A DNA stretch of 64,000 bases from Streptomyces sp. Edi2 (GTDB lineage Bacteria > Actinomycetota > Actinomycetes > Streptomycetales > Streptomycetaceae): the NCBI RefSeq assembly GCF_040253635.1, contig NZ_JBEJGX010000003.1:7527501-7591500 (forward strand), given 5' to 3'. This document shows positions 41,964 through 60,106 of this stretch, piece by piece; the stretch's first letter is position 1, and every line of letters starts with the position of its first letter. Under the pieces are notes generated by a model. The model was not told where the DNA came from, did no database searches, and worked only from the letters and a program-made list of their open reading frames with translations. The position numbers and the translations under genes are program-made.

Positions 41964-43631
41964 TCACGCACCGAGCGGGTACCAGCAGATGCGCAGTACC
42001 ACGTTGCCGTCCGCACTGGCCACATCGTCGATGTCCAGGACCCACAAGGACACTTCGGTGTCTTTGGCGACGGGAATCGACATGTGGTCGTAAACCCCCT
42101 GGGTGCTCTGTTGCGTCTTCTTCCCGTGGGCCACGAGGTCAAGGTAGTAGGTCTTTCCCGGCACGGCGACCTGTACCCGGTGCTTACGCCCGTGCTTCTC
42201 GTCGTCACTGAACCACTCGAAACTCGCCGCCTCAATGGCGAGCACGCCGTTCTTGGGTGCCGTCATTCTCCATCTGCTGTTCTCCCGCGGCTTCCTTTGC
42301 GTCACCCCGTATTCCGTCACCGTGGGGGTGGCGAACAAAGGCTTCGCGAAAGAGATGTCTCCATTGGCCGTGATGCGTCCGCCGGCCGTGATGGCACCCG
42401 CGGTCAGAGTCTTGTCGGCCTTCACCGTGAGACCGTTATTGGCGGAGATGAGTCCACTGGCCGTGATGGCGGCTGCGGTCAGAGTCTGGCCGGTGGGGAC
42501 AGTGATGCCCTTGTTTCCGGTGACGGTTCCGTCGGCGGTTAGTGCGCCTTTGATCGTGACGCCCTTCTCGTCCTTATCGATGGTCAGCGCTTCGTTGACA
42601 AGACCACGGATGTCCCTGACGCGGAGAACCTTGCCGCCGGTCACCGTGGCGTGCGCATTGATCCGGACATCAGCGTTGAGGTCTGTTTCGCCGTTGACGG
42701 CGAGTTTGCCTCCGACGGTGAGTTTGTTGGTGCCGGTGATGGTGACGTCTCCCTCGAACGTGGTGGCGCGGGCCCAGGTCTTCTTGCCGTCCTTGTTGTC
42801 GGCGGTGAAGGTGTCGGTGACACTGATCTTGTCGGTGGCAGTGAGGGTTTTGGCGGCGATGTCGGGGTTCTTCACCGTGACGGTGGTGGATAGATAAAGG
42901 CTCACCGGCCGGTTGTTCGCGTCCTTTCCGCGGGCCTCAAGGACGAAGGTCGTCGTGTCGGTCAGGGCATGGGTCTCGCGGCTTCGGCCGGTGACCTTGG
43001 TCGGGGTTTCCGAGCGGCCGTCCCACAGGTAGTACTCGGTACCCGCCTCGCTCCCCTCCCAACGCAGTACCGTCTTGAGGCCGTTGGCCACCTGCGGCTT
43101 CTCGCAGGAGAAGCTACGGAGGAAGAAGGAGCCGGGAATTTCCATCACTTTCTCCACGGGGTCGACGGAGAGGGGGCGGTCGTCCCAGTCACCGTCACCG
43201 GTGAAAGCCGTGTACGCCGAGACAGTGATCTGGGCATGGCCGGGAGCGCGGGTGACGGGAATGGAGGAGAGGATGAGTGTGAATCGCTGCCCGGCGCCGA
43301 AGGTGATCTGACCGCCGGGGCCTTCGGGTGTGCAGACGAAGGTGGCAGCACCCGCAGTGAGTTGGGGGACGATCCGCCAGGCCTGGCCCGGGCGGCTGTA
43401 GTTGTAGTGGATGGCGTCGCCCCTGCTGGCGAGGTCGGTGGCGGCGGAGCCTACGGGCAGGGTGACCGTGATCCGTCGGCACCTGACGGGGGCGCTGCCC
43501 TCGGGTTTGGAGAAGGTGAGCTTGAGGACTCCGTTCTTGGTCTTGCTGGCGGTGGAGACGGGAAACCGCTGGGATGCGGGGTCCGGTTCGACATGGAGTA
43601 ACGGTGTGGAAGTGCTGGCGGTCGGCTCCAT
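41964..43631 (-). CDS. Tail-fibre-like protein with base domain, shaft and head (555 aa)
   Basis: ATG 43631 with AGAGG upstream. Four parts: a base domain (about 15-180: RCRRITVTLPVGSAATDL, FVCTPEGPGG, FGAGQRFTLILSSIPV) shared with the next two genes; a neck (180-290: YYLWDGRSETPTKVTG, SLYLSTTVTVKNPDI); a shaft (290-450) of short beta repeats such as GLTVKADKTLTAGAITAG and GRITANGDISF, as in trimeric phage fibres; and a head (about 455-555: RWRMTAPKNGVLAIEAASFE, YDHMSIPVAKDTEVSLWVLD) resembling a C1q-like knob. No signal peptide. It looks like a receptor-binding fibre. Last gene of the operon, 35 nt after its neighbour. Confidence 0.6.
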   Translation of the reverse strand: MEPTASTSTPLLHVEPDPASQRFPVSTASKTKNGVLKLTFSKPEGSAPVRCRRITVTLPVGSAATDLASRGDAIHYNYSRPGQAWRIVPQLTAGAATFVCTPEGPGGQITFGAGQRFTLILSSIPVTRAPGHAQITVSAYTAFTGDGDWDDRPLSVDPVEKVMEIPGSFFLRSFSCEKPQVANGLKTVLRWEGSEAGTEYYLWDGRSETPTKVTGRSRETHALTDTTTFVLEARGKDANNRPVSLYLSTTVTVKNPDIAAKTLTATDKISVTDTFTADNKDGKKTWARATTFEGDVTITGTNKLTVGGKLAVNGETDLNADVRINAHATVTGGKVLRVRDIRGLVNEALTIDKDEKGVTIKGALTADGTVTGNKGITVPTGQTLTAAAITASGLISANNGLTVKADKTLTAGAITAGGRITANGDISFAKPLFATPTVTEYGVTQRKPRENSRWRMTAPKNGVLAIEAASFEWFSDDEKHGRKHRVQVAVPGKTYYLDLVAHGKKTQQSTQGVYDHMSIPVAKDTEVSLWVLDIDDVASADGNVVLRICWYPLGA

Positions 43632-43666
43632 CAATACCTCTGTATTGGGGAATTCACGGGCTTGCG

Positions 43667-45007
43667 CTAGTTGAGGGTGACGCTGCCGTCGAATGTGGTC
43701 GTGTTCGCCGTTGTCTTCCTCGTCCTGCCGTTGGCGGCGAAGGTCGCGTCCACCTCCAGCTTGTCGGTCACGTCCAGCGTCTTCGCCGTGATGTCGGGGC
43801 CGTTCACGGTGACGGTCGTGGACAGGTAGTGATGGACCGTCTCATTGGCCGCGTTCCTGGTCTGGGCATTGAGTACGAAGGTGGTGGTGCGGGTGAGTTC
43901 GTGGGTGGGTTCGGTGTGCAGGCCCGACACCTGGGGTGGGTTGAGTTTCTTGGGCGCGTGGTCGTCCCAGGAGAGGTAGTACTCGGTGTTGCGGGGCGTG
44001 CCCTCCCACTGAAGAACCGTGGCCGTGCCGTGCGCGACCCTTGGCCTCTGGCACGAGAAGCGGTGGAAGTAGAACTCGTTGCCGGCCTTTTCGACGGGGG
44101 GCAGGGCAATGGGCCGGTCCGCCCAGGTCGCGGTTGTACTGACGGAGAAGTGGCGCATGCCGAAGAAGCCGGTGGGTGTGGTGCTGAGCCGCACCCGCAG
44201 GTACCGGGCCTCCACGGGTGTGGTGAGGGTGTGGTTGTTGACCGATTGCGAGGAGTTGAAGGTCCGTCGTTGCCAGCTGTTGGTGGCGCCGGTGGTGGAC
44301 GATTCCAGGACGGGTGTCCCGGATCGGTTGCCGCCGCCGGCAGTGCCGGTGAGCAGGTAGTAGCCGGTGACCGGCTGGACGGACCCGAGATCGAGGGTGA
44401 GGGTGCTGTTGATCGCCGGGGTGCCCTGGGTGCGGAATTCCGATGACCCGTCTCCCGCCAGGTTGCTCAAGGGGTAGGAGGGGTTGGCGGTCATGGTCGT
44501 GCTGAAGGTGCGCGCCGGGACCTCGCCGGTGCCGGTCGCCGTGGTCTCGGTCAGGGTGAGGCGCGCCGGGCCCTCGGCGCGGTTGATGGGGATGCTGGAG
44601 AGGATGAGGGTGAACTCGCGGCCGGCGCCGAAGGTGGTGTCGGCCGACGGCGTATCCGGTGTGCAGGTGAAGGTGAGGGCGGTGACCTCGGAAGGGGAGG
44701 TCGGCTCGGGTGGGGTCGTCTTCCGCTCGATGGTCCACTCGACGCCCGCGCTGTCGCGCGGGTAGTCATCGATGTCGTCGGCGTTGGCCGCATCGGTAGC
44801 GGCCACCAAATCGGTCCTGTTCGGGCCGACGGGAAGGGTGATGGTGAGCGCCCGGCACCGCACATCGGGACCGGAGCCGGGTTTGCGGAAGGTGAGGAAG
44901 AGGGTGCCCTTCTTGGTCTCCGTGGCCGTGGAGATGGAGAACTGGACGGGAACGGATTCGCCGACGGCCTGGAGCAGGGAGCCGGCCTGGGTGGCGGTCA
45001 GGTACAC
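43667..45007 (-). CDS. Shorter paralog: base domain, discoidin-like insert and neck (446 aa)
   Basis: GTG 45007 with GGAGG at 6 nt. The base domain (RCRALTITLPVGPNRTDL, FTCTPDTPSADTTFGAGREF, LILSSIPINRAEGPARLTL) aligns with the fibre gene. Next a coagulation-factor-5/8-like domain is inserted (about 180-290: LTLDLGSVQPVTGYYLLTGT, VEARYLRVRLSTTPTGFFGM). The neck follows (EYYLSWDDHAPKKLNPP, HYLSTTVTVNGPDITAKTLD). It stops at TTFDGSVTLN, precisely where the longer protein continues into its shaft. Thus it may be a shaftless version of the fibre protein. Confidence 0.6.
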   Translation of the reverse strand: MYLTATQAGSLLQAVGESVPVQFSISTATETKKGTLFLTFRKPGSGPDVRCRALTITLPVGPNRTDLVAATDAANADDIDDYPRDSAGVEWTIERKTTPPEPTSPSEVTALTFTCTPDTPSADTTFGAGREFTLILSSIPINRAEGPARLTLTETTATGTGEVPARTFSTTMTANPSYPLSNLAGDGSSEFRTQGTPAINSTLTLDLGSVQPVTGYYLLTGTAGGGNRSGTPVLESSTTGATNSWQRRTFNSSQSVNNHTLTTPVEARYLRVRLSTTPTGFFGMRHFSVSTTATWADRPIALPPVEKAGNEFYFHRFSCQRPRVAHGTATVLQWEGTPRNTEYYLSWDDHAPKKLNPPQVSGLHTEPTHELTRTTTFVLNAQTRNAANETVHHYLSTTVTVNGPDITAKTLDVTDKLEVDATFAANGRTRKTTANTTTFDGSVTLN

Positions 45008-45108
45008 GGAGGGCCTCCGTCGGCGCGGTGACAACGACCGCTCCGGGATGGTGGGTTCGCGGGTGAGGCGGCGGAAAGCGACTGGACGGCGGAGAGCGGC
45101 TGGGCGTC

Positions 45109-45612
45109 TCAGGCGACGTCATCCATGGCAATGACGGTGACCCGGAGTTCCGCCGAGTGGCGGGCCCGGGCGGCGGACTCGGTGGCGGTGTCATCGGTGA
45201 CGCGGATGGTGGTGGTGCCGTCCTGGGCGTCCAGGGGGATGTTGTCCAGGATGAGTGTGAAGGCCCAGGTGGCGTTGAAGACGGCTTCGTGCCGTGGGTT
45301 TTCGGGGGTGCAGGTGAAGACGGTGCGGTCGGGACGGGTCAACATCTTCCTGATGAGCCAGGTACGGGAGCCCGGCGCGCGGTAGGCGGTGTTGATGCGT
45401 TCGGGCCGGGTGGTGAGGGCCCTGGGGTGGGTGCCGGTGGGCACCTCGACGGTGATGCCACGGCAGGTGGCGGGTGCCTGGGCGGCGCCGGTGCGGGTGA
45501 CGGTGATGTCCAGGCGGCCCTGGCGGGGGTGGTGGGTGGTGGCGCGGGTCAGCGCGGTCGGGGTGGTGGCCAGGGCGTAGCTGAGGTGCGCGGTGGTGAC
45601 GGGTTCGGTCAA
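45109..45612 (-). CDS. Minimal paralog: base domain only (167 aa)
   Basis: TTG start at 45612, preceded by GGAAGGAAAG. The whole protein is one base domain (CRGITVEVPTGTHPRALTTR, TVFTCTPENPRHEAVF, WAFTLILDNIPLDAQDG), followed by a short tail ending VTVIAMDDVA. The conserved FTCTPE and FTLIL(S/D)(S/N)IP blocks link it to the 446- and 555-aa proteins. It sits 26 nt after the 1484-aa gene. Confidence 0.6.
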   Translation of the reverse strand: MTEPVTTAHLSYALATTPTALTRATTHHPRQGRLDITVTRTGAAQAPATCRGITVEVPTGTHPRALTTRPERINTAYRAPGSRTWLIRKMLTRPDRTVFTCTPENPRHEAVFNATWAFTLILDNIPLDAQDGTTTIRVTDDTATESAARARHSAELRVTVIAMDDVA

Positions 45613-45638
45613 GGGGCTTTCCTTCCGGCGGGCGCGGG

Positions 45639-48600
45639 TCAGGGCTGCGGGGTCGGCTCGGGGGCGGAGCCCGGGGTGGCCGGGTGGAGTTGGAGGTATC
45701 CCGCGCGCGCGGTGGGGTTCGGGTCGTCGGGGTGGGTGAGGTGATCGGCGGGCATCAGCGCGCGTTCGTCCCAGCCGGCGGCGTCGCCCTCGGTGGCATC
45801 GGGCTGGGCCCAGGACCAGGTGCCGTAGCGGACCGAGAGCGGGGGGATGACCAGTGCGTCGACGTCGGGGGTGACCTGAAGGCCGCGGATGACCACCGTG
45901 CTCTGGGAGGCTTCCGGTTCCATTCGTACGAAGCGCGCGGTCAGGGGCGGCACAACGGTGCCGTCCGCGGGCCAGTGCGGCTCTGCCGGGTTGGCGGTAT
46001 CGGCGGCGAGATCGGTCCACTCCTCACCGTCGGCCGATGCCTTCAGCCTCCGGACGGAGGGGATGCGCGCTCCGTCGGGCTCGCCGAGGAGGACCTGGAC
46101 GCCGGTGACCGGCTGGACGGTGCCCAGGTCGACGGTGACGGTGTCTCCGTTCCGGGGGGCCGAGCCGCTCTCGTACCAGGTGTCCGGCCTGCCGTCCAGG
46201 ATGAGGCCGACGGGCCCGGCTTCCGGTGTGCTGCTGCCGTGGCCGCCCGGAATAGTGGTGGCGGCCGTGCGCATGCTGCGGGTGGTGGCCAGCAGGGGGT
46301 TGAGCCGGAAGGATGCGCGGACGGCGGCGAGGGCCTGGTGGACCTGGTCGGCGTCGAGCCTGAGGCTGTGGACGGGGAGGATGTCCGTGGTGGCGTGGAC
46401 GGGCAGGTGGGGGTGGGCGAGGAGCGTCACATGACGGGTGACGCGGCCAAAGGCGCGGGCGGGCAGGGCAAGGTCTTCCCCGCTGACGGTCCCGATGTAG
46501 CCCGCACTGTTCCCGGCCGGCTGATGGGCGTGCAACAGGTCGTAGTCGACGGCCCGGTTGGGCTCGGCGCTGTAGTAGCCGATGAGTCCGTCGGCCAGCT
46601 TGTACGGGTCGCCCAGCCGGATCGCCCAGGTGTCCTGGGGGTAGTCCGCCGCGGGAGGGTCGAGGACGGTTGCCCATGAGGGGTCGGTGAGCGGGGGGCC
46701 GTCGAGCTCGAAGTCGAGATCGGCGCGGATCAGGGCGACCGGCCGGCCGATGAGGCGGAGGGGGAGGTGGTCGTCTTCCGGAGCCGGGTCGACGGTGGTC
46801 CTGAGGCTGGTGTCGATGGTGGTGAGCAGGGCCTTGAACGCGTCCGCGGAGCTCTCGCGGCCGGTCAACGCCGCCAAGAATCCGTGCAGTTGTGGGTGGT
46901 CGTCCTCGAACCGCTGATCGTCGAGCCGGAGATAGGGGGAGTGGGGGAGTAGGTTGTAGTCGGCGGCCTTGGTCCCGTCGACGGTGGTGAGGACGCGCAC
47001 TTCGCCCAGGGCCTGCCCGGTGGGCCCATAGACGCCGAGGGTCTGGTCGAGGTAGTTGGCCAGAAGCCAGCCCGCGACCGGTGAGCCCTGGCCCACCGCG
47101 GCCGGGGCGGCGGGGACGGGACTGAACGTGAGGCGGGTGTCCTGGAGGATCCGGGGCGGAAGCTGGAAGAAGCGTTGAGGATTGATCAACTCGGGTTCGG
47201 TGTACAGCTCCTTGCTGGGGGTCACCGTGGGGCTGGGCACCGGGTACTGGTCGTACCAGTTGCCGTCCTCGTCGCCGGAGGTGACCAGGTCCAGGGTGCG
47301 TCCGAAGCGGTCCATTACGCGCAGGCCGGTGAAGAAGAACTGTCCGGCCCTAATGGGCTGGAAGCGCCGCTGTCCGGGGCCCGCCCCGTCGGGTACATGA
47401 TTCTGGTCCCCGGTCAGCCGGGCCGCCTCCCCTTCGGTCGGTACCTGTGCCCCGCCGTCGAGCTGCAACAGCCAGTCGTTGAAGCCGTCGAGGGTCTGGG
47501 AGAGGATGTCGAGCTTCTCCAGCTCCTCGCGCAGCGCGGCGAGCGAGCGCGTGTCGGCATCGGGATAGGTGGTCATGTACCGGGCCAGTTGGGCGCGGGC
47601 GACATAGACCGTGGTGGGGGCGAGGTAGGAGCGGCCGCGGAACTGCCTGTGCAGTACGTTGCCTTCGCTCTCGGAGTCTGCCGGGAGGGTGCCGGTGCCG
47701 TTCCAGCGGTAGCCGTAGGAGTTCAGGCCGGTGTCTTTTTCCGGAGCCTGGAAGGTCCAGTGGCAGTCCTCGCCGGTGCGGTAGGGAGTGGGGAAGAAGT
47801 TGAGCTCCCACATCAGGAACATCGGCAGCCAGGGCTGGCGCCACGGTGCCGTGAACTCGGCCGGCGCTCCCTGTGCGTTGGCTTGGGGGTTTTCGAGGAG
47901 GTCGTGCAGGGCCGTGCTGCCCGGCGCGCCGGTGCGAGCGGCCCGTTCCAGGAGCGCGAACTCCTTGAGAAGGGCGGCGGCGGAGGCCGGCAGCGCGGGA
48001 ATGCCCGGGTTGTCCGGGTTCTCGGGTACGGGCGTCATGACGCCCTCCAGCTTGACGGCCTTGAGCAGGGTGGCGGGCAGCCGGCAGGGCAGCGGGTTGT
48101 CACTGTCGCGGGTCAGCGGCACGGTGCCGCCGCCGGTGCCCTCGATGAGCAGGACCGGATCGGCCGGCTTGTGGAAGCCGGCCTTGGGCAGGCGCTTGAG
48201 CCGAAGGTGCTCGGACAGTCCCTTGCCGGTGGCCCAGGCGTCGATGGCGTCCTGGTCGTCGCCCGGGGGCGGAAGCTCGCTGCGGAGGGCGTCGAGCTCG
48301 GCGAGCTGAGTCTGGACCGCCTTGGCGGCACCGTCGTTGGCGGGGTTGAGCTGCCAGGCGCAGGCGGCCTCGAAGTCGGCGGGCGCGTCGTCCGGACGCA
48401 GATGGGCGGGCACGTTCCGCAGCACCTCGCTCAGCCAGTACAGGGACCACACCCGCCACTGGCTCGCGGTCAGCTGGCGCAGGGCGGCGTCGTAACGGCT
48501 CTGGTCGGAGTTGAGCCTTGCCAGCCATGCGGGGCTGAGGTCCACGCCGCGACGCGTCGGCTGGGCATCGGGGTCCTCTACGGGGCGCGGAGCGATCTGC

Positions 48601-50093
48601 CAGCTGAAGCCGCCGTCCCGGCCGGAGAACCAGCTGCTGTGGGTGATCTCTTCCAGGTCGAGGTCCCCGTCGGCGCCGTCGAAGGTGTCCAGGGTGCCGT
48701 GGTAGAGGGCACTGAACAGCTCGGCGGTGCGCGGGGAGCGGGTCTGTCGGTTGACCAGTGCCGCGGCGGCCTCGCCGGTGCTGTGTCCCAGGGCGATCTT
48801 GAGTTGTGCACCGTTGACGGGGCGGTCGGGGTCCTCGGGTGCCTGACCGCGCTGCCATTCCAGGCCCAGCGCGGTGCCGCTGTATACGGTGCGGAGCTCG
48901 CCCTCGGGTGCCGCGGTGATCTCGACCTCGCGTACGGCGACCGGTTCGTCGCCGGCTTCCAGGAGGCACAGCTGAACGTAGCGGGCCGCGAAGGGGCCGG
49001 CGGGAACGTACTCGATGACGGGGCTTGCGGCCGCGAAGTCCTGGTGGTGGGCTTCGGGCCAGTCGGCGTTGTCCAGGGATGCCCGCAGGCGCACGGCGGG
49101 CAGCAGGTGTCCGCCGTCGAGATCGCCCGCGTGCACCCGGATGGCGCTGATCTGCTGCTCGCTGCCCAGGTCGATGGTGATCCAGCTGGAGTCGGCAGGG
49201 GGTTGGGCGCTGAGGTAGTAGGTGTCCGGGCGGCGGTCGAGTACGTGGTCGAGCGCGTGGGGTTCGGTGGTGCCCAGGGTGGTGGTGGCGCTGCGGCCGG
49301 CCATCGTCCAGCCCAGGGCCTGCATTACCTCGGCACGCGTTCCCTCGCTGTCCGGGGGCAGCAGGCCCGGGATGCGGGCAGCCTGTTCGAGGATGTCCTG
49401 GGTGGTGTCGCTGTACCAGCCGACGACCAGATAGCTCAGGGTGGCGTCGGGCGGATAACTGTCGCCCTCACTGCGGTCTTTGAGGTCTTCGAGATCGTCG
49501 TGCATCGAGAAGACGTTCTCGTGGTACGCCTGGTAGGCGGCGAAGGACGGCAGGCCCGCGCCGACCGCGGTCAGGAACAGCTCACGTCCTTCGGGCTCCC
49601 GCCAGGGGCCGTCGGCGAGTGAGTGGATATTGCCGAGCCAGTCGACCTCCGGCGTCTCCGCGCGCGGATTGAGGAAGCTGTTGATCGCTGTACGGCCGTC
49701 CCAGCCGTCGGGGTCGTCGCTGTAGAGGTAGTCGCTGTGCACGACCCAGCCCCTGGCCGGCTTGGCCGCGCCGCGCACCTGGGCGTAGCGGACGACCAGC
49801 CAGCGATTGGGCACCAGCGGGTAGGCGGTCTGCCCGGTGGCCTCGTCCACGACGCCTTCGGTCAGTGCCTCGGGAAGCTGCCACTGGATATGGACCCCTT
49901 CGTCCATCTGGACGTTCCCGCCGCTGAACGGCTCGGGTTCGGCGGCGCCCCGGCCGGTCCCCTCGATGGTGCCCAGCATGCCGTCGAAGCTGGGCTTGTA
50001 GCGATGGACGGGCTGGCTGCGCACCTTGTCGTTGACCAGGAGGGCGTGGACTTCGACCGGCACGATCAGGTCGGTGGTGTCGGTGGCGTTCAT
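45639..50093 (-). CDS. Giant protein with two discoidin-like domains (1484 aa)
   Basis: ATG 50093 overlaps the stop of the 904-aa gene (TGATG). No signal peptide. Two coagulation-factor-5/8-like beta sandwiches are seen: about 275-400 (HVLDRRPDTYYLSAQPPADS, WITIDLGSEQQISAIRVHAG) and about 1260-1385 (LILDGRPDTWYESGSAPRNG, VTVDLGTVQPVTGVQVLLG). The second closely resembles the insert in the 446-aa protein. The opening LIVPVEVHALLVNDKVRSQP and middle are unlike any family I know (for example YGYRWNGTGTLPADSESEG). Discoidin domains usually bind sugars or lipids, so surface binding is likely. I infer a structural rather than enzymatic role. Confidence 0.6.
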   Translation of the reverse strand: MNATDTTDLIVPVEVHALLVNDKVRSQPVHRYKPSFDGMLGTIEGTGRGAAEPEPFSGGNVQMDEGVHIQWQLPEALTEGVVDEATGQTAYPLVPNRWLVVRYAQVRGAAKPARGWVVHSDYLYSDDPDGWDGRTAINSFLNPRAETPEVDWLGNIHSLADGPWREPEGRELFLTAVGAGLPSFAAYQAYHENVFSMHDDLEDLKDRSEGDSYPPDATLSYLVVGWYSDTTQDILEQAARIPGLLPPDSEGTRAEVMQALGWTMAGRSATTTLGTTEPHALDHVLDRRPDTYYLSAQPPADSSWITIDLGSEQQISAIRVHAGDLDGGHLLPAVRLRASLDNADWPEAHHQDFAAASPVIEYVPAGPFAARYVQLCLLEAGDEPVAVREVEITAAPEGELRTVYSGTALGLEWQRGQAPEDPDRPVNGAQLKIALGHSTGEAAAALVNRQTRSPRTAELFSALYHGTLDTFDGADGDLDLEEITHSSWFSGRDGGFSWQIAPRPVEDPDAQPTRRGVDLSPAWLARLNSDQSRYDAALRQLTASQWRVWSLYWLSEVLRNVPAHLRPDDAPADFEAACAWQLNPANDGAAKAVQTQLAELDALRSELPPPGDDQDAIDAWATGKGLSEHLRLKRLPKAGFHKPADPVLLIEGTGGGTVPLTRDSDNPLPCRLPATLLKAVKLEGVMTPVPENPDNPGIPALPASAAALLKEFALLERAARTGAPGSTALHDLLENPQANAQGAPAEFTAPWRQPWLPMFLMWELNFFPTPYRTGEDCHWTFQAPEKDTGLNSYGYRWNGTGTLPADSESEGNVLHRQFRGRSYLAPTTVYVARAQLARYMTTYPDADTRSLAALREELEKLDILSQTLDGFNDWLLQLDGGAQVPTEGEAARLTGDQNHVPDGAGPGQRRFQPIRAGQFFFTGLRVMDRFGRTLDLVTSGDEDGNWYDQYPVPSPTVTPSKELYTEPELINPQRFFQLPPRILQDTRLTFSPVPAAPAAVGQGSPVAGWLLANYLDQTLGVYGPTGQALGEVRVLTTVDGTKAADYNLLPHSPYLRLDDQRFEDDHPQLHGFLAALTGRESSADAFKALLTTIDTSLRTTVDPAPEDDHLPLRLIGRPVALIRADLDFELDGPPLTDPSWATVLDPPAADYPQDTWAIRLGDPYKLADGLIGYYSAEPNRAVDYDLLHAHQPAGNSAGYIGTVSGEDLALPARAFGRVTRHVTLLAHPHLPVHATTDILPVHSLRLDADQVHQALAAVRASFRLNPLLATTRSMRTAATTIPGGHGSSTPEAGPVGLILDGRPDTWYESGSAPRNGDTVTVDLGTVQPVTGVQVLLGEPDGARIPSVRRLKASADGEEWTDLAADTANPAEPHWPADGTVVPPLTARFVRMEPEASQSTVVIRGLQVTPDVDALVIPPLSVRYGTWSWAQPDATEGDAAGWDERALMPADHLTHPDDPNPTARAGYLQLHPATPGSAPEPTPQP

Positions 50094-52807
50094 CAGCGCG
50101 CTTCCCCCGAGGTCGGTGTCGACTGCTTGATGGTGACGGCGAGGTGGGGGCGGAGCCTGGTATCGGCGGCTTCCCTGGACGTGATGTGGGCCGCCTCGAT
50201 GGGTGACTCGTCCTTGGTGAGTGCCACGGACACCTGGCGGCCAGCCTGGCGACGGACGTACTCGGTGATGTCGAATTCGAGCCACGTCCATGCGTCGGCC
50301 GGTCCAAGGCGTGCCGTGGCGAGGGGACTCTCGGAGAGGTCCGGTTTGTCGGCCCAGTCGAGGCCGGCCTCTTCCCAGTCGTTGTCCGTGCCGTGCGCCT
50401 TCAGGTCGAAGTCGCCGGTGTCCATGGCCGAGGCATGGACGCGTAGCACGGCCCGGTCGACGCGGTCGGCGGGAGGGAGCCGGGAGGTGTCGAAGCGCAG
50501 ATAGGTGATGCGGGTGACGTTGCTGGTGGGGCCATTGTTCTTGACGAGCAGTGGGTCGGTGGAGCCGAAGTCCGGCCCGGAGTCGTACTTGACGAAGGTG
50601 TCCGCGACGCACTTGCACCGGAGCATCCCGGGCAACAGAACTTGCTCGACAGGCGCATTGACGAGTTCCAGGGCGAACTGCCCCGGCTCCAGACGGTCGG
50701 TGCCCGTGAGACCGCAGGCCGTGGACAGGGCGGAGACCAGGCCGTCATCGCCACGCAGGTGCAGCACATCCCGTCCGCCGTCGGCACGGCCGAGGCGCAG
50801 ATAGTCGAAGACCGTCTTCTGGGTGTCGGCTGTCGGGAATTCCTCCCCGGTGGGGTATCCGAGCCGGCCCTCCGTCAGATGCCGCAGGCTGATGCGCTCG
50901 GCGTCGTTGATGCCGAAATGGATGCCCTGCCCGGGCTCACGGATGACGACGAGATCCGGGACGGCGTCCCACAGCAGCAACAGGACGTCGGGGGCGAGGT
51001 GGTCGCGGCGGAGCTCTTCGACCGGGTCGCCTTCGACCGTCGCCAGGATGTCGAACTCCGGCCAGGCACGCACGAGTTCGGAATGGATCAGCAGGCCGGC
51101 GGCTGGTTCCCCGGTGCCGCGGTCGCGGAGCAGGCGTTGACGCAGCAGCGGCTCCAGGTCGCGGTCGACGGAGGTGTGGGCGCCCACATCGGTCGCGCCG
51201 GCCACCAGGGCCTGGATCCAGCCGGGGTCGATCCGGAAGGCTCGCAGGCTTTCCGGCGGCAGCATCCGCGGGTCGGGGACCAGGTGGTTGAAGGGCACTC
51301 CGCGCAGCAGGCCCAGGCGTTCGAGCCAGGGCGACGTGGTGGGGGTGCGCGCGTCCGCGGCGGCCGTGAGTGACTGGCGCGCCCGTGCGTCGGCGAGCAG
51401 GGCGCGCGTGCCGATCCGGGCGGTGCGGGCGGCGCGCCGCGGGCTGGGCTCGCGGACGAGGGGGGCTTGCAGGGCCCGGACCAGCCCGGTGCCGAAGTCC
51501 GCGGTGCTCAGCTCGCGAAGGGCGGCGGTGCCGGGCGGGGCATCGGGGTCATGGCGGGCACGCTCGGGATCGGCGCTCAGGGCGCTCAAGGTGGCGTCGC
51601 GGTTGGCCATTTCCCGGCGTGCCGCGGTGACTTCGGCGCTGTAGTCGGGGTCGGCGAGGGCGATGGTGCGGCCCAGTGTCCAGGCGGCGGCGTAGCTGAC
51701 GTCGAACAGGCCGTGCTGCCGGTCGTAGATCAGGGCGTGGTCGGCCGTGGTGTAGGGCCCGTCGGTCTCGTTCAGGGGCAGTTGCGGGGCGGTCAGCGGG
51801 GTGCAGGGGCCGCGGTACCAGGCGTAGGTGTGCTCCCCGGACGGGGTGCGGTAGGCCACGGCGGTGTAGCCGTGGCGTAACCGCTGGAGGGCGTGCTCCG
51901 CTTCCGCGGAGGACGCCGTGGCACCGGACGGCACCAGGCGCAGGGCCAGGTTCTCGCGGTCGCCCTCGCCGGGGGCCACCAGGTTGCGCAGCAGTTTGCC
52001 CGGGTTGAGACTGCCGTCGGGGTCGTTCGTGAAGGACCAGGACCACAGGCTGCACAGCCGTACGCGTTCGGTGCCGCCGGGCAGGGAGCCCTCGGCCAGG
52101 CGGCCGGTCCAGCCCTCCAGGGAGACCAGGTGCACCGCGTAGCTGCCCGGGGCGCGGGGGAAACGGTTGGCGGCGACGACCGCGTACTGACCTTCGGCCA
52201 TGACCTCGCCGTCATCGCGGCGTTGCGGGGCGGTGGCCACGTCGCGCATATGGGTCAGGAAACGCAGTTCGTCCTCGCGCGGCACGTTTGCGGTGAACAC
52301 GCGCGCCGGAACGTCGATGGTGCGGCACTCAAGGTCCTGGTCGACCCGGTCGTTGAGGGCCGGGCCGAGCGTGCCCGCTCCGGGGTTACGCAATTCCCGC
52401 ACGGTGCGCTGGGTGAAGACCCCCTCCGCCTCGGGGTCGTCGTCGACCTCGCCTTCGGCGAAGACGAGCAGCGCCAGCCACGGCTCCCGCTCCTCGGAAC
52501 GGCTGATGAGCTCCCGTTCCCAGGGCAGCAGCGCCCGGTTCAAGGTGATGTGCGGCAGCACATGCGTGTAGAGGCCCGACGCACCGGCGGCCGGATAAGT
52601 GGCGTGGACGGTGGTGGGGTCCAGGAAGAACTGGGCCGCGCGGATCTCGTACCGGTCCGCGACCTCGGGCAGGGGGTCGTCCTGCGGATCGATCCGGACC
52701 CCGTCGCGGACCAGGTGCTGCTCCACGGTGACGGTGTAGACGCCGGCGGTGGCCGCGGGTTGCAGAGAGTTGTAGAAGGTGACGTTCAGGTCGGGGCTGT
52801 CGGTCAT
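50093..52807 (-). CDS. Large protein with C-terminal DNRLRE-like domain (904 aa)
   Basis: ATG 52807, 4 nt after the stop of the 1578-aa gene. The N-terminal about 300 residues are beta-rich (DLNVTFYNSLQPAATAGVYT, LYTHVLPHITLNRALLPWER); the middle is more helical. The last about 170 residues fit the DNRLRE/CBM96 fold: CVADTFVKYDSGPDFGSTDP, ITYLRFDTSRLPPADRVDRA, WLEFDITEYVRRQAGRQVSV. DNRLRE domains occur in surface and carbohydrate-binding proteins. No export signal. Part of a six-gene operon with tiny gaps, so probably a structural subunit of one assembly. Confidence 0.6.
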   Translation of the reverse strand: MTDSPDLNVTFYNSLQPAATAGVYTVTVEQHLVRDGVRIDPQDDPLPEVADRYEIRAAQFFLDPTTVHATYPAAGASGLYTHVLPHITLNRALLPWERELISRSEEREPWLALLVFAEGEVDDDPEAEGVFTQRTVRELRNPGAGTLGPALNDRVDQDLECRTIDVPARVFTANVPREDELRFLTHMRDVATAPQRRDDGEVMAEGQYAVVAANRFPRAPGSYAVHLVSLEGWTGRLAEGSLPGGTERVRLCSLWSWSFTNDPDGSLNPGKLLRNLVAPGEGDRENLALRLVPSGATASSAEAEHALQRLRHGYTAVAYRTPSGEHTYAWYRGPCTPLTAPQLPLNETDGPYTTADHALIYDRQHGLFDVSYAAAWTLGRTIALADPDYSAEVTAARREMANRDATLSALSADPERARHDPDAPPGTAALRELSTADFGTGLVRALQAPLVREPSPRRAARTARIGTRALLADARARQSLTAAADARTPTTSPWLERLGLLRGVPFNHLVPDPRMLPPESLRAFRIDPGWIQALVAGATDVGAHTSVDRDLEPLLRQRLLRDRGTGEPAAGLLIHSELVRAWPEFDILATVEGDPVEELRRDHLAPDVLLLLWDAVPDLVVIREPGQGIHFGINDAERISLRHLTEGRLGYPTGEEFPTADTQKTVFDYLRLGRADGGRDVLHLRGDDGLVSALSTACGLTGTDRLEPGQFALELVNAPVEQVLLPGMLRCKCVADTFVKYDSGPDFGSTDPLLVKNNGPTSNVTRITYLRFDTSRLPPADRVDRAVLRVHASAMDTGDFDLKAHGTDNDWEEAGLDWADKPDLSESPLATARLGPADAWTWLEFDITEYVRRQAGRQVSVALTKDESPIEAAHITSREAADTRLRPHLAVTIKQSTPTSGEAR

Positions 52808-52811
52808 GCGG

Positions 52812-55800
52812 TCACCTCGTGCCGGTGGCGGTGAGCATCGGGAAGTCGGTCAGGGAATTGCCGGCGAGGCCGGCGTAGCGGGTCAGCGGACCGTCGCTGT
52901 CCGGCGCCACACCGAACGCGGCCAGGGCCCGGTGCACCTCGGTGCGGGTGGCCGCGGTCGGCACGAGGGTGTCGGCGATCACCCCGACGCTGTTGTCGTC
53001 CTCACCGGGCTCGGGAGGCGGGCCGGCGACCGCCGTGTCGTGCAGGGGCATGTTCCCGGGCGGCAGGCCGTCCACGTCCAGGGCCTCGGTGGGTACGGGA
53101 CCGACGCACGGGCCCAGGGTCGGCGACGGCACCTTGACGGTCAGGCCGGTCAGGCGGCCCGGGACCAGTCCCTGCTGCTTCAGGGCCTCGTGGGGGTTGG
53201 CGAGCGGTTTGCCCCACAGGGCCTGGGGCACGCCCTCGGCGGTGGGGATCACCTGCCACTTCGCCTTCTTCCAGTCGTAGGGCTGCCCGCTTCCGTCCAG
53301 GATGCCGACGGCCTGCTCGCTGACCACGCCGCTCAGCCGCATCGGCCGGATGTCGACGCGGGCCGCGTCACTGCCCGCGACGGTCGTGCCGTTCACGGTG
53401 ATCTTCGAGGCCGGTACCGCGGACTCGACGGCGACGGTGAAGCCGTCGATGCGCACCAGGAGCGGGGCACCGGCAGCGGCCCGCGCTTCGGACTCGCCCG
53501 TTGTCACATCCGGCAGTTCGCAGCCCCTCTTCGGCGCGGTGCGCAGGGGTGCGGGCAGCTGGATCCGGAAGTCCTCCCACGGGACGGGGGGTGCTCCCAC
53601 CCGGTCGGCGCCGAAGCCGAGGCTGAAGGAGATGAACCACACCTTGACCTTGGCCCGGCCGCCGACCGGCGGCAGCCACAGTTGCAGGCTCACCCCGATC
53701 TCCAGGGAGACGCGGATCCGCACGAAGAGCACCTTGACGGTGGCCGCGACCCCGATGCTCACCCCCAGCGCGATGTCGGCGTAGAAGGGCTTCCACTGGA
53801 CGAGCGCGTCGAGGTGGGCGGTGAACCACGCCTGGACGTGGATGCCGTGGTGCCCGTCGTAGATGGCGGCGAACGCTCCGCCGACCATGAAGGCCCCATC
53901 GGTGAGCGCCGCGTACGCCTGGGCCTTGAGGGTCACCGGGCCCCGGGCCCAGATCATGCCCACCCGGGGCGGCGTGGGGTAGTGGGCGGGGCGCGGGAAC
54001 TGGGGGTGGTAGCCGCCCGCCGAGAGCACAAAGCCCTTGGTGATGCCGCGCCCGGGGATGTCCTTGCCCCACACATACAGGGAGATGCCGCCGGTCAGCT
54101 CGGCGGCCGGGTCGATGAGGTACGAGCCCCTGGCGATCACCGAGTCCATGGAGAAGCGGCTCAGCGCGGAGTCGTAGACGAACACGAAGTCGACGACCAC
54201 TTTGCCCAGGGCGGGGCTGATCTTCAGTCGCTGGGGCGAGGAGTGCCGCGCGTCGCTCTCGTTGGGCACGGTGGGCGGCAGGGACAGGGTGGTGCTGCCC
54301 GCGAGCATGGCCTTCCAGCCCGCCTGGCCCCACTCCACCAGGGCCAGGACGCGGGCGTTGATGAACTTGTAGACGGTGAACTCGACTCCGCCGGCGATCC
54401 AGTACTGGCCCTGTGCAGGCGTGATCCAGCCGGGCGGCGCCGCCAGTTCGTTCAGCGCCTGGCCGGGGGTGCGCGGCTCCACCTCGCCCCCCGGCGTCGC
54501 CGGTGCCGCGCCCAGCCGTTTGACCAGGGGGAACCTGCTGATCTCCGCGGTGGTGGGGACTCGTACGGTGCTGTTGATGCCGAAACCGAGCGCGATTCCG
54601 GTCACCGTGACCGGGCCGATGGTGAAGAGCCCGTTGGTCCGGGTCTTGCCCGCCACGAGTTCGGCGTAGGCGAACAGCGAGGTCCAGCCGTCCGTCTTGT
54701 TGCGGGCCCAGCTCCCGAAGACCTGGAGGGCGAACAGGTCCTGGATGTCCAGGCGTCCCGCACCGGCCAGCGCCAGGTCGAAGTCCGGGTCGAGGTCCAG
54801 GTTCACCAGCGCGCCGGAGATCTCGACCTTGGGCGGGCCCGAGTACTCCATCGCCACGGCCGCGCCCTGCAGCACGGGACGGGCGTCGAAGTCCTTGTCG
54901 AGCCCGACCCCGAGGCCGATCAGCTCCACGACCAGCGGGCCGACGGTCATCGAGGCGTCGAAGGCCAGATACAGCAGCCCGTAGCCGAAGCCGAGCCGGG
55001 CATTGCTGAACCGCACCGCGCCGATGACATGGCCCAGCAGGTCGTGGGAGGAACCGGCCGGGCGCTCCCGCGGCACGATGTCCCGTCCGGTGATCGGCAC
55101 CGCCCGCTCCGGATACGCCAGCGTCGCCTGAGTGTTTCCGCAACGGAGCACCGCCCACAGCTGGGGGCCCTTCTCCAGGTCTCCTGGCAGGAACTCGGGC
55201 AGCGGGCACGGCGCGGAGACGCTGAGCTCGGCCAGCAACCGGTTGAGCGTGTCGATCTCGGTCCTGTTCCACGGATGCTCGGCGAAGGCGAGGTGGATCT
55301 CGCCCAGGATGATGTCCGTCTCCTCCGTCGTCTCGACGACGACCGGCAGATCGGAGGCCCTGACCTGGGCGGAAGCGCGCAGCGCGATGAGGTTGCGGCG
55401 CTGGCGTGTGTTGGCCGGCGTGGTCGCGACCGCCCACCCGTACTTCTCGGTGGTGGCGGTGACCACCAGGAGGTGGGTCCCGAAGTTATAGGAGAAGCCG
55501 GCGGAGGTCAGCCGGGGGTTCAGCGACTCGGGGATGGCTTCGGACACGTCCACGCCCAGGAACCGGGCGATATCCGTTGCCCGCACTCCCCGATCATCGC
55601 GCCAGCGGCCGGTGACGCGCTCCGGCCACGGGAAGTTCTCGGTGGGCACGGCGAAGTCCATGGTGAAGCCGCCGGGCAGGAGGAGGGAGATGCCAGGGAA
55701 CCTTGGATGCACCCCGAAGTTCTTCAGGTCGAGGTCGAAGCCCAGCCCGGGCAGGCCCAGCGAGAAGCCACCGCCGAGGTCGAACGTGGCGTCGAACACC

Positions 55801-57548
55801 AGGCGCAGCACCCAGTCCGCGCTGACCGTCCAGTCGAGGTCGTCCGGGTCCGGCCAGGACAGCCCGATCCGGGACAGGTGCAACGGCCCCAGCGCCAGGT
55901 CCGGGATGTCCGGCAGCCAGGAGAGGTCCGGGGGGCCCTGCGGCGGCCAGGGAATGCCCCAACGCACTGATGAGGTGCCAGGGATCCGCCAGTCCAGATC
56001 CAAAGAGAGCCCCGGCTGCCAGCTGCCGCCGCCGGATACCGGGGTCAGACCGGGCCACCATGAGCCGGACCCCAGGGAACCGATCCAGAGGTTCAGCCGG
56101 TCGGCCTGCGGCAGGCTCAGCCCGGTGCCGATCGCCGCGAGGCTGATCCCGTTGAGGAGGAAGTCCTGGATCCCTTCCAGCAGTTTGCCGATGAACGGGA
56201 GGTCGGGCAGCAGGGCGTCGAGCCCGTTGACGCCGAGCAGTGCGACCTTGCCCCATGGGGTGCCCCACTCTGGCCGGACGGGCAGTGCGCCGAAAACAAC
56301 CCGTAGCCACGGGGACTCGCCGATGAGCGCGAAGTCTCCCAGTTTGAGGTCCAACCGGAAGCCCAGCGCGGGAAGTTGCGGGGTGAATCGGTCCGGCAGC
56401 GGTGGCATGTCGATGCCGAAGAGGCTGAGCAGGTCCGGTACCGGGATGTTCGCCTGGGGGGACCAGCCGGTCAGCAGCCCGGCCCCGGGCAGGCCCGGGA
56501 AGCCGGGCAGGTCACCGATGTCGAAGTGCACCGTGCCGCCCGGCCGGCCCAGCGACAGCTTGGGGAGGCGGCCCGCCACCTCCACGTCCCCCACCTCGGG
56601 AAAGCCGAACTCAAAGCCCAGGCCCGGCAGTTCCAGGTTGAGCCAACCGAGGTCGAAGCCCGCCTCGAAGACGACGTGCAGCCCGGTGGCCGAGAACGAC
56701 AGACCGAACCCCGTCAGTCGCAGCCGCAGCGGGCCGAACGGGAAGGTGACCGGGCCGAAATCCGGCATCCAGGACAGCGGCGCCTCCAGGCGTACCACCC
56801 ATAACCGGGGCTCTTCGCCGGGCAGCAGGCAGGTGGCACCCGCCCACAGTCCTGCCTCCAGGTCGCGGTCCGGCAGGGTGGGCCACCACTGGCCGGGGTC
56901 CGCCACCGCGGCGGCCACGGCGGCATTGACCCGGACGCCATATCCCGCGCTCATCCCTCCGGGTGCCACCGCGATCAGCTCCAGGCCACGCACGCCCAGC
57001 CGGGCATCCTCCGGGAACTCCTCGCCGAGGTGGGGAAGGTCAGCCGATGAGGCCTGCACGTCCTTCAGCCCGATCAGCGCCACCAGCGCCTCTCCCGCGC
57101 TGGGCGCGGCGAAGACCAGACGGAGGTGCTCGGTCTCCACGGCGGCGACCACCGAGCCCGTGTCGAAGTCATGGACAAACGACAGCTCTTGAACGCCGGC
57201 CAGGAACACCTGTGGCGCATCCGCCAGTTCCACACCCCACAGCTCGGCCAGCGCGGCGACCGTGGTGTCCATCACCACCCGCACCGACAGCCCGGTCACC
57301 CACCCGTGTGCCTGATCACGGGCGAACTTCAGCTGTACGGGCACCGATTCCCCGGCCACCCGCACCGTACCGGCGAATGACAGGGCCTCGTCGTTCACCT
57401 CCCGAGCCTGCTCGACCACCAGCCGGGTACCGGCCTTCAGCAACGCCAGCAGCTCCGAGAGCTTCCATTCCCACGGCTCGGGGTCCAGGGCGAAGGAGCC
57501 GCCCTCGGCCGGGAAGTGTTCCAGGAGATCGTCGACGGAAACGGGCAT
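52812..57548 (-). CDS. Giant DUF6603-like beta protein (1578 aa)
   Basis: ATG 57548 with GAGAGGG upstream; first gene of the operon. Residues 1-240 form an N-terminal domain starting MPVSVDDLLEHFPAEGGSFA. A Pro/Gly/Leu/Phe-rich beta region (about 300-720) has many short units such as LNLELPGLGFEFGFPEVGDV and LSLGLPGLGFDLDLKNFGVH. A following part (about 850-1400) has VTVTGIALGFGINSTVRVPT, YWIAGGVEFTVYKFINARV and VLFVRIRVSLEIGVSLQLWL, which I associate with DUF6603. The tail is Pro-rich and ends ALAAFGVAPDSDGPLTRY. Strands alternate apolar and polar residues, as in hydrophobic-groove lipid-transfer proteins. No signal peptide or enzyme motif. Confidence 0.6.
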   Translation of the reverse strand: MPVSVDDLLEHFPAEGGSFALDPEPWEWKLSELLALLKAGTRLVVEQAREVNDEALSFAGTVRVAGESVPVQLKFARDQAHGWVTGLSVRVVMDTTVAALAELWGVELADAPQVFLAGVQELSFVHDFDTGSVVAAVETEHLRLVFAAPSAGEALVALIGLKDVQASSADLPHLGEEFPEDARLGVRGLELIAVAPGGMSAGYGVRVNAAVAAAVADPGQWWPTLPDRDLEAGLWAGATCLLPGEEPRLWVVRLEAPLSWMPDFGPVTFPFGPLRLRLTGFGLSFSATGLHVVFEAGFDLGWLNLELPGLGFEFGFPEVGDVEVAGRLPKLSLGRPGGTVHFDIGDLPGFPGLPGAGLLTGWSPQANIPVPDLLSLFGIDMPPLPDRFTPQLPALGFRLDLKLGDFALIGESPWLRVVFGALPVRPEWGTPWGKVALLGVNGLDALLPDLPFIGKLLEGIQDFLLNGISLAAIGTGLSLPQADRLNLWIGSLGSGSWWPGLTPVSGGGSWQPGLSLDLDWRIPGTSSVRWGIPWPPQGPPDLSWLPDIPDLALGPLHLSRIGLSWPDPDDLDWTVSADWVLRLVFDATFDLGGGFSLGLPGLGFDLDLKNFGVHPRFPGISLLLPGGFTMDFAVPTENFPWPERVTGRWRDDRGVRATDIARFLGVDVSEAIPESLNPRLTSAGFSYNFGTHLLVVTATTEKYGWAVATTPANTRQRRNLIALRASAQVRASDLPVVVETTEETDIILGEIHLAFAEHPWNRTEIDTLNRLLAELSVSAPCPLPEFLPGDLEKGPQLWAVLRCGNTQATLAYPERAVPITGRDIVPRERPAGSSHDLLGHVIGAVRFSNARLGFGYGLLYLAFDASMTVGPLVVELIGLGVGLDKDFDARPVLQGAAVAMEYSGPPKVEISGALVNLDLDPDFDLALAGAGRLDIQDLFALQVFGSWARNKTDGWTSLFAYAELVAGKTRTNGLFTIGPVTVTGIALGFGINSTVRVPTTAEISRFPLVKRLGAAPATPGGEVEPRTPGQALNELAAPPGWITPAQGQYWIAGGVEFTVYKFINARVLALVEWGQAGWKAMLAGSTTLSLPPTVPNESDARHSSPQRLKISPALGKVVVDFVFVYDSALSRFSMDSVIARGSYLIDPAAELTGGISLYVWGKDIPGRGITKGFVLSAGGYHPQFPRPAHYPTPPRVGMIWARGPVTLKAQAYAALTDGAFMVGGAFAAIYDGHHGIHVQAWFTAHLDALVQWKPFYADIALGVSIGVAATVKVLFVRIRVSLEIGVSLQLWLPPVGGRAKVKVWFISFSLGFGADRVGAPPVPWEDFRIQLPAPLRTAPKRGCELPDVTTGESEARAAAGAPLLVRIDGFTVAVESAVPASKITVNGTTVAGSDAARVDIRPMRLSGVVSEQAVGILDGSGQPYDWKKAKWQVIPTAEGVPQALWGKPLANPHEALKQQGLVPGRLTGLTVKVPSPTLGPCVGPVPTEALDVDGLPPGNMPLHDTAVAGPPPEPGEDDNSVGVIADTLVPTAATRTEVHRALAAFGVAPDSDGPLTRYAGLAGNSLTDFPMLTATGTR

Positions 57549-58616: not shown

Positions 58617-59729
58617 ATGACCGATACGTCCTTAACCCCGCGTACTCGCCGACGCCGGCCCACGGGGGAGGTGGTCCTCGGAGTGGACACGCACCGGGAC
58701 GCCCATGTGGCTGCCGTGCTCTCCCTGGTGGGGGCGGTGATCGGTACCGAAGAGTTCCCGGCCACCGCGGCCGGATACCGCGAACTGCTTCAGTGGACCA
58801 GCGGCTTGGGCACGGTACGGCGGGCCGGGGTGGAGGGCACCGGCTCCTTCGGAGCAGCCCTCTCCCGCTACCTGCTGACCCAGGGCGTCGAAGTGCTCGA
58901 CGTAAACCGGCCCGACCGGACCGACCGCCGTCAGCGCGGCAAAACGGACCCGCTCGATGCCCAGAACGCAGCCCGGGCGGTGCTGAGCGGGCGGGCACGC
59001 GCCCGGGCCAAGTCAGGCGACGGGCCGGTGCAGATCGCCCGGATGTACAAACTCGCAAAGGCCTCAGCGGTCAAGGCCCGCACCCAGGCGATCAACCAGC
59101 TCAAGGCCGTCCTCGTCACCGCCGCCCCGAACCTGCGGGAAGAACTGGCCCGGCTGAACAATTCGGAACTCTTCCGTACCTGCGCACGGTTCGCCGACGA
59201 CTGCAAGAACGACGAGGGCGGTGAAGAGGCGGTGCTGAAGGCCACCCGTATGACCCTGTGCCTGCTGGCTCACCGAATCGAGCAGCTCACCGAACAGATC
59301 CAGGACCTGGAACGCCGCCTGGCCCTGCTCGCGGAACGCCACGCCCCGCAGCTGCTCACTGTGGTGGGCATCGGTCCGGACACGGCCGTGACTCTGCTGA
59401 TCACGATGGGGGACAACCCGGAACGTCTGCACAGTGAGGCGTCCTTTGCCGCGCTGTGCGGGGTCAGCCCTGTCGAGCGTTCCTCGGGCACTCGGCAGTA
59501 CCGTCGCCTCAACCGCGGCGGCGACCGGCAGGCCAACGCCGCCCTCCACCGGATCGTGCAGACCCGCCTGCGCTTCGAGCCACGCACCCAGGACTACTAC
59601 GAACGCCGCACCAAGGAGGGCAAAACCCGACGCGAAAATCGTCCGATGCCTCAAACGCTACGCCGCCCGCGAGGTGTTCCACCTGGTCAGGCCCACACAG
59701 TCATGCCCCCCGTCATAGGGGCAGTGTGA
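58617..59729 (+). mobile_element. IS110-family transposase, nearly full length, C-terminus frameshifted
   Basis: 370 aa from ATG 58617 with GGGAGGT 7 nt upstream. DEDD-type RuvC-like domain: Asp in LGVDTHRDAHVAAV, Glu in GVEGTGSFG, and Asp pair in KTDPLDAQNAAR. A coiled linker (LAHRIEQLTEQIQDLERRLA) leads to the C-terminal Tnp domain with the Ser motif CGVSPVERSSGTRQYRRLN. At 59635-59638 the copy has AAAA where the 24-kb remnant has AAA. This replaces the normal ending (IVRCLKRYAAREVFHLVRPT) by NRPMPQTLRR and so on. Whether it is still active is unclear. The right end of the element seems to lie at about 59724, flush with the repeat. Confidence 0.85.
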
Positions 59730-60106
59730 GATCTGAGAGCGCGTAGGGGGTAAGTGAGACATCTGCACACCCTGCAAGGCTGCCTTGATGGGACAGAAGA
59801 CGCCCCGGTCCTGATCACGAGCAAGGCACCGGCGTCCGGCCCGGCGGATCATGGTGAGCTACGACGAGCCGAGTCATCCGATTGTCCACGTCGTCTAGGC
59901 GGTAGAGGCCCTGACCTGCGCAAACTCCGCTTCGGTCGTGGCCGGCGGGCACACTCCGACGGCTCTTCCTGACCCGGGCGTCAGGACCGCGTCAAAGAGC
60001 CGGTAGCGTGGCCGGGTGAGTGAGAAGACCCTGCAACACCGGATCGACGGCCCCGACGACGCCCCCGTACTCGTCCTCGGTGCCGCTCTGGGTACCACCT
60101 GGCACA
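59725..60106 (+). repeat. Right copy of the 382-bp imperfect direct repeat (promoter and 5' end of pcaL)
   Basis: Same length as 39358-39739 and alignable without gaps. Here the repeat continues into the intact pcaL gene, so this copy is the native one or a replaced hybrid. It starts at the IS110 right end. Confidence 0.9.

Follow-up and report, generated by a model that had tools for sequence, protein, structure and literature searches.

Six tightly packed genes, all on the minus strand, occupy positions 41964-57548 of the window (the whole 64,000-nucleotide stretch of DNA from Streptomyces sp. Edi2 that was analysed), an observation of an earlier sequence-only reading that ORF translation confirms. 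The genes (g1 to g6) and their features are as follows:

52812-57548, minus strand: g1, DUF6603 protein, 1578 aa from the ATG at 57548; first core gene
About 53514-55025, minus strand: best DUF6603 stretch of g1 (Pfam)
50093-52807, minus strand: g2, 904 aa, with the conserved core family g2A spanning residues 1-730
50132-50611, minus strand: CBM96/DNRLRE C-terminal extension of g2 (Pfam, NCBIfam); carried by the window copy only among 13 aligned
45639-50093, minus strand: g3, 1484 aa; core family g3A
48969-49229, minus strand: first F5/8 type C (discoidin-like) insert of g3 (Pfam)
45903-46235, minus strand: second F5/8 type C insert of g3 (Pfam)
45109-45612, minus strand: g4, 167 aa; fourth-slot paralog cut down to the N-terminal domain
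43667-45034, minus strand: g5, 455 aa, TTG start assumed; fourth-slot paralog with an N-domain, an F5/8 type C insert (about 44165-44482) and a second conserved domain, without a head
41964-43634, minus strand: g6, 556 aa from a TTG whose next codon is ATG; full fourth-slot protein with an N-domain, a second domain, a repeat stalk and a C-terminal head with a final WYPLGA
41964-42863, minus strand: C-terminal part of g6, residue 258 to the end; region variable between close relatives

The reading frame of g1 stays open up to 57758, beyond the ATG at 57548. With the starts as used, the gaps g1-g2, g2-g3, g3-g4, g4-g5 and g5-g6 are 4, -1, 26, 74 and 32 nt, the ATG of g3 and the stop of g2 overlapping by 1 nt. 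Third-position G+C is consistent with coding for g1, g2, g3, g5 and g6; at g4 the script called a plus-strand ORF instead. The last three genes are paralogous, as had been read from the sequence (g5-g6, E 2e-39; g4-g6, E 3e-16; single-pair E-values). The repeat stalk of g6 is beta-solenoid-like by eye, and Pfam matches on it lie below the cut-off.

Library searches agree with the domains that had been named for the three large proteins. The 1578-aa g1 is a member of DUF6603 (PF20248; 369 bits against a curated Pfam cut-off of 27), the 904-aa g2 ends in a domain scoring 88 bits for CBM96 (Pfam, over the curated cut-off) and 66 bits for DNRLRE (NCBIfam), and the 1484-aa g3 contains two discoidin-like F5/8 type C domains (81 bits; Pfam, over the curated cut-off). 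One further F5/8 type C domain, absent from the earlier reading, lies in g5 (31 bits against a Pfam cut-off of 28.2). No Pfam or NCBIfam match over cut-off was obtained for g4, g6, or g2 and g3 outside their inserts, and Pfam found no NTPase, nuclease or TIR in the window core. PADLOC matched 0 families for 6/6 window proteins. In PHROG the matches of g2 and g3 are confined to the inserts, the best match for g6 has E 0.024, and nothing convincing lies outside the inserts; g6 likewise has no match among 50,697 phage records. Profiles of g1, g3 and g4-g6 find no solved relative at E<=10, the g2 profile finds asparaginases only (E 0.13-0.14) and the g6 head finds nothing below 0.06 among solved structures. 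Apart from DUF6603, the window core thus belongs to no characterised family within the libraries searched, in line with the earlier view that the genes are not drawn from well-characterised unrelated families. The DUF6603 family (Pfam PF20248) is itself a name without a function: a literature search, covering few subscription journals and no bioRxiv preprints, gave no mention of DUF6603, PF20248 or IPR046538. Among titles and abstract starts in the literature search, with preprints and most subscription journals outside its scope, no description of the cassette was found, and an earlier description elsewhere is possible.

Upstream of the cassette and on the opposite strand, 58617-59729 (+) encodes an IS110-family-like transposase (PDB matches: ISCro4, E 5.5e-7; IS621, E 2.2e-6). 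IS110-like elements may help to move the cassette. At 60016-61299 (+) a 3-oxoadipate enol-lactonase-like part is fused to a 4-carboxymuconolactone decarboxylase-like part; this gene is catabolic and apparently unconnected with the cassette.

Conservation, lineages and upstream neighbours of the cassette

The cassette is a conserved unit in which a constant trio keeps its order (DUF6603, g2 and g3, followed by a fourth protein). It measures roughly 10-16 kb and has both chromosomal and plasmid-borne copies, in several bacterial phyla and in haloarchaea. Forty loci (the window, L014, L016-L023 and L055-L084) were chosen by DUF6603 alone and extracted with their flanks. A g2 family gene lies directly after DUF6603 in 40/40 of these loci, and 37 of the 38 loci with enough contig continue with a g3 family gene on that strand; the contigs of L017 and L071 end in g2 and are hence outside the g3 count. 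In L084 (8266-17292), which is of type B (see below), g3 and the fourth gene lie on the strand opposite to that of DUF6603 and g2, which looks like an inversion of the two genes together. Twenty-five of the 40 loci are outside the g2 alignments, one of them (L066) being the same contig as the aligned L012, and every locus with a g2 not used in the profiles matches (24/24; weakest E 5e-31). The sequence-only reading had treated the genes as one unit and had named a lack of co-occurrence in other genomes as evidence against this; the genes do co-occur. Its description of the unit as lacking any known system around it holds in that nothing known surrounds the genes, but the cassette is itself a recurrent system.

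The reverse comparison, picking by g2, gives a similar picture. With g2B, DUF6603 lies upstream in 12/12 fetched plasmid loci (L096 and L097 by annotation only); 13 records had matched, and H20, from the same species as H21, was left out. With g2A, DUF6603 lies upstream in 7/8 fetched loci (L011-L013, L050, L052-L054), while Paenibacillus sonchi (L051) has g2A without DUF6603; two repeated S. clavuligerus records, one partial Embleya match and three matches to the DNRLRE part only were left out of this pick, and L012 and L053 appear a second time, as L066 and L075, in the set picked by DUF6603. Solitary g2 genes without DUF6603 are possible. DUF6603 itself occurs in 9/296 genomes of the phylum and 25/199 of the genus, the own genome being counted in both.

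Plasmid-borne copies are found in Paenibacillus, Embleya, Nocardia, Rhizobium, Paraburkholderia, Gemmatirosa and four haloarchaea. On a linear plasmid of Streptomyces europaeiscabiei a type B cassette lies between tyrosine recombinase genes (L096, 1753-26721). In Paenibacillus polymyxa (L050, 1-4083), a baseplate-V-like gene and then nuclease-like and ankyrin genes lie ~7-11 kb upstream of the cassette. The own genome, of 9.8 Mb, contains a second, undecorated cassette (L014, 8506-19891) about 230 kb from the window. The g1-g3 proteins of this second cassette share 83-90% identity with their counterparts in S. celluloflavus and S. monomycini but only 37-51% with the window copy; the closer relationship to other species suggests that the two cassettes represent two separate acquisitions.

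Two lineages can be distinguished, with DUF6603 common to both. Type A combines g2A and g3A and is found in Streptomyces (including the window), Embleya, Paenibacillus and two further Actinomycetota (L016, L018). Of the type A loci picked by DUF6603 with enough contig, 18/20 have a g6-type fourth gene downstream; it is missing in L016 and L060, and was also not found in Paenibacillus L050. Type B combines g2B and g3B and is found in Actinomycetota including Nocardia, and on plasmids of Rhizobium, Paraburkholderia, Gemmatirosa and the haloarchaea Salinigranum, Halobellus, Halalkalicoccus and Natrinema. Its fourth family, of ~560 aa and distinct from that of type A, is linked by BLAST in 18/25 loci with downstream ORFs compared. 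The g2A and g2B families can be aligned over 199 columns (E 4.8e-9). No similarity was detected between g3A and g3B, none between the two fourth families (the type B alignment including one unlinked row, L083:17140-18924), and ten g3B proteins gave no PHROG match. Since the slots are shared and neither g3 nor the fourth protein is recognisably similar, two of the four slots may have been replaced or have diverged beyond recognition.

A same-strand gene that is enzyme-like or WD40 stands directly before DUF6603 in 20/57 DUF6603 loci. The kinds of upstream gene are:

PhoD-like phosphoesterase: L077 and L085 over cut-off, L020 just below, L072 and L089 by relatedness
M64 peptidase: L019, L069
S8 peptidase: L060, L070
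Trypsin-like: L068 below the Pfam cut-off; relatives L067 and L095
MBL-like: L016, L054 and L059 below the Pfam cut-off; relatives L056 and L062 by BLAST
WD40: L021, L081, L083

The upstream genes of L017, L022, L052 and L088 have no Pfam match, and L078 has a radical SAM gene 269 nt before DUF6603. The window copy has no enzyme in this slot, its upstream neighbour being the transposase on the other strand, and 11/17 type A loci from the 199-genome genus sample have no same-strand ORF of at least 250 aa there. The upstream slot is a tendency, strongest in type B, and not a rule. The slot S8 peptidase of L060 (15762-17018, minus strand) has a leader-like N terminus by eye, unlike the S8 peptidase of L070 and the M64 peptidase of L069.

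Adhesive inserts, the fourth protein and location signals

The discoidin and CBM96 domains are, to judge from alignments, inserts or decorations of the window copy and not part of the cassette core. The CBM96 region of g2 is occupied in 0/12 aligned relatives. The first discoidin domain of g3 is absent from 11/11 aligned relatives and the second from 10/11, the exception being Embleya (L052), and 14/14 other aligned family members lack the g5 discoidin domain at the same place. A Pfam scan of 37 other g2, g3 and fourth proteins found F5/8 type C in 2, FG-GAP in 1, bactofilin in 1 and MFS in 1, the MFS match being perhaps due to a misplaced gene boundary. The characterisation of these genes as encoding giant adhesive proteins therefore fits the decorations of this copy only.

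In the type A fourth protein the N-terminal part is conserved, whereas the C-terminal part is modular and changes fast. In seven close type A pairs, residues 1-257 are 75-96% identical and the remainder 16-68%, with the split at residue 257 set after seeing where BLAST alignments ended and identities taken over aligned columns only. N-terminal and C-terminal identities are:

L011/L014: 83 and 47%
L011/L013: 75 and 27%
L014/L013: 77 and 16%
L065/L063: 96 and 53%
L065/L064: 95 and 68%
L073/L074: 79 and 25%
L073/L053: 75 and 28%

In 5 of the seven pairs, g2 and g3 are conserved over their last 130 residues to about the same degree as elsewhere (84-98%), so the C-terminal divergence of the fourth protein is no general property of protein ends. 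The tandem fourth-gene copies of L053 behave in the same way (80 and 34%); those of L054 do the opposite (46 and 90%), which is what an exchange of C-terminal parts would give. There is no such contrast between L011 and window g6 (33 and 34%), between window g5 and g6 (48 and 53%) or between the copies of L055 (37 and 35%). Several heads terminate in a W-F/Y-P-L/F-G-like motif, which may reflect a common fold beneath variable surfaces. Pfam found no toxin domain in 37 relatives, among which the heads are divergent. NG86 dN/dS values for L011 against L014 and L013 are 0.28-0.46 for g1-g3, placing the body under purifying selection in those two pairs, and 0.50-0.53 for the fourth gene, a value that blends conserved and changed parts.

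Leader and membrane calls were made with a hydropathy heuristic rather than a trained predictor. By this measure a leader-like N terminus was not found in 32 g2A, 26 g2B (one of them a wrong row, L017:3970-6996, a gene upstream of DUF6603) or 32 g6 regions, nor in g1 or 12 DUF6603 starts, which agrees with the earlier remark that signal peptides are lacking, for g1 and for the g2 and g4-g6 families. In g3A, 10/29 regions exceed the leader threshold, and in g3B 2/18; six of the g3A passes were inspected and reflect a short strand (LIVPV or like) following or near an acidic residue. In nine plasmid records, with 26 annotated starts of g2, g3 and fourth genes, a single start exceeds the threshold, through the same g3A strand. 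A 19-mer over the membrane-like hydropathy threshold occurs in 22/59 DUF6603 matches; elsewhere such 19-mers occur in 0/41 g2A, 3/43 g2B (one a wrong row), 2/31 g3A, 1/31 g3B and 0/34 g6 sequences. The hydrophobic 19-mers of DUF6603 could be buried strands or membrane contacts. Four stretches of DUF6603 compared with shuffles have a beta-periodic hydrophobic moment of z = 5.0, 4.8, 5.0 and 2.8 and a helical z of -2.8 to 0.9; the beta z is 3.4 for g6, 2.4 for g3 and 0.0 for g2.

Candidate functions and comparison with known systems

The cassette fits no named kind of system, as far as the tests go. A contractile injection system was considered and is unlikely: the PF04984 sheath has 0 matches in the own genome (a search of PF04984 only, whose control gives matches in 3/14), and with no convincing PHROG match outside the inserts this upholds the earlier exclusion of such a system. 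A phage origin was also rejected, as pattern scans of viral contigs gave 19 stretches for g2 and 22 for g3, none of which encodes a relative. The only match to g2B in a phage collection is MT835531.1 (L092), an unverified scaffold from human faeces labelled Bacteriophage sp.; besides the g2, g3 and fourth genes of type B it encodes a BTAD-nSTAND1-WD40 protein, and it is probably a mislabelled bacterial contig.

The reading preferred here, held tentatively and with something short of even confidence, is that the cassette would encode a mobile multi-protein complex with a constant body, an exchangeable binding head and an optional enzyme. DUF6603 (amphipathic and, by periodicity, beta-rich), g2 and g3 would build the constant body. 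The fourth protein would dock onto it via its N-terminal ~257 residues and display the stalk and a head that chooses the target. In the window copy the lectin-like modules (CBM96, F5/8 type C) and the paralogs g4 and g5 would broaden or tune binding, and in some relatives the upstream enzyme would supply an activity that the complex brings to the target. Since the core proteins have no recognisable leaders, assembly would most likely take place in the cytoplasm, followed by release through lysis or export by some other route; the complex would then act between cells, which is the weakest step of the proposal. It is conceivable, but doubtful, that the cassette encodes an undescribed, phage-unrelated binding or delivery particle of Bacteria and Archaea, carried on plasmids and chromosomes, with a DUF6603-g2-g3 body and exchangeable head and enzyme, and with a role like that of tailocins or extracellular injection systems without their parts.

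Several known systems resemble parts of this proposed complex. Extracellular contractile injection systems and tailocins similarly combine a constant body with a variable binding end, are apparently leaderless and occur in soil bacteria and archaea, a likeness in how they work only; the genome with the cassette lacks PF04984, however, and the window core has no PHROG match outside the inserts. Phage tail fibres and spikes share with the type A fourth protein a retained N-terminal part, stalk-like repeats and a changing C-terminal head, but g6 has no counterpart in the phage records or, beyond the weak hit noted above, in PHROG; the tail-fibre-like contrast, seen in 7 close pairs with g2/g3 controls in 5 and negative in 3 wider or tandem comparisons, is a likeness and not membership. 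Tc toxin complexes are also giant leaderless multi-protein sets, but the six window proteins match no Tc or Rhs family in Pfam at E<=1. Polymorphic toxin and contact-dependent inhibition systems likewise exchange terminal modules and have extra partial copies beside a full gene, whereas no toxin domain was found in the cassette by Pfam. Effector-slot conflict systems of multicellular prokaryotes likewise have a conserved core next to a slot filled by unrelated enzymes, but in the window core Pfam found no NTPase, and PADLOC gave no match. As for the DUF6603 family, g1 is a member, and its conserved partners have no Pfam match over cut-off outside the inserts in the window and nearly none in the relatives scanned.

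The main rival to the exchangeable-head complex is an intracellular conflict or immune complex made of the same parts, in which an invader or a damaged-self signal would be sensed by the variable end of the fourth protein and relayed by DUF6603-g2-g3, with the protease, phosphoesterase or MBL protein of the upstream slot as effector. This is rather unlikely. In its favour are a patchy distribution (25/199 genus genomes), N termini without a leader-like stretch in g1, g2 and the fourth family, CATRA/CHAT genes near one copy and an nSTAND1-WD40 gene near another. The enzyme types of the upstream slot are used as effectors in conflict systems. However, PADLOC is blank for all six window proteins, the window core lacks an NTPase, nuclease or TIR by Pfam, the window copy has no effector, and the surface-type modules F5/8 type C, CBM96 and FG-GAP, together with BGTF and lamin-tail domains (by annotation, in haloarchaea), would be odd inside a cell. 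Another alternative, close to that of the sequence-only reading, is a cell-envelope adhesin or lipid-handling assembly: a hydrophobic rod or groove at the membrane would be made by the beta-rich DUF6603, and a surface-binding layer by its partners. Here CBM96 and F5/8 type C over the Pfam cut-off, a BGTF surface domain annotated in two haloarchaeal g3 records, the beta-periodic moment of DUF6603 (z 2.8 to 5.0) and its membrane-like 19-mers (22/59 matches) have to be set against the few such 19-mers in g2A, g2B, g3A, g3B and g6, haloarchaeal g3 starts that are not leader-like, adhesion domains that are mostly copy-specific inserts and a DUF6603 profile that matches no solved protein. Lipid handling, and with it a candidate likeness to TamB/VPS13-like lipid-transfer proteins with their repeating beta-groove fold, would be based solely on the amphipathic-beta periodicity of DUF6603, and the envelope reading as a whole is improbable.

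Streptomyces and Paenibacillus both sporulate, and germination genes lie near the Paenibacillus polymyxa copy, which would suit a structure of sporulation or aerial hyphae with the proteins as spore coat. Such a role is very improbable given type B cassettes in haloarchaea, Rhizobium, Paraburkholderia and Gemmatirosa and DUF6603 in only 25/199 genus genomes. To our knowledge, haloarchaea and these other hosts form no such spores. That unrelated large adhesins lie side by side by chance might be thought from the different or repeated common domains of three window proteins, but the same order recurs across the DUF6603-picked loci, across phyla and in archaea, so that chance adjacency has a negligible probability and is refuted as far as tested.

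With its order kept from Streptomyces to haloarchaea, the cassette could represent either an inter-microbial machine or a conflict system of a new kind. The variable head points to the part expected to meet the target, and heads can be compared between closely related natural copies. The cassette would also give DUF6603 its first functional setting.
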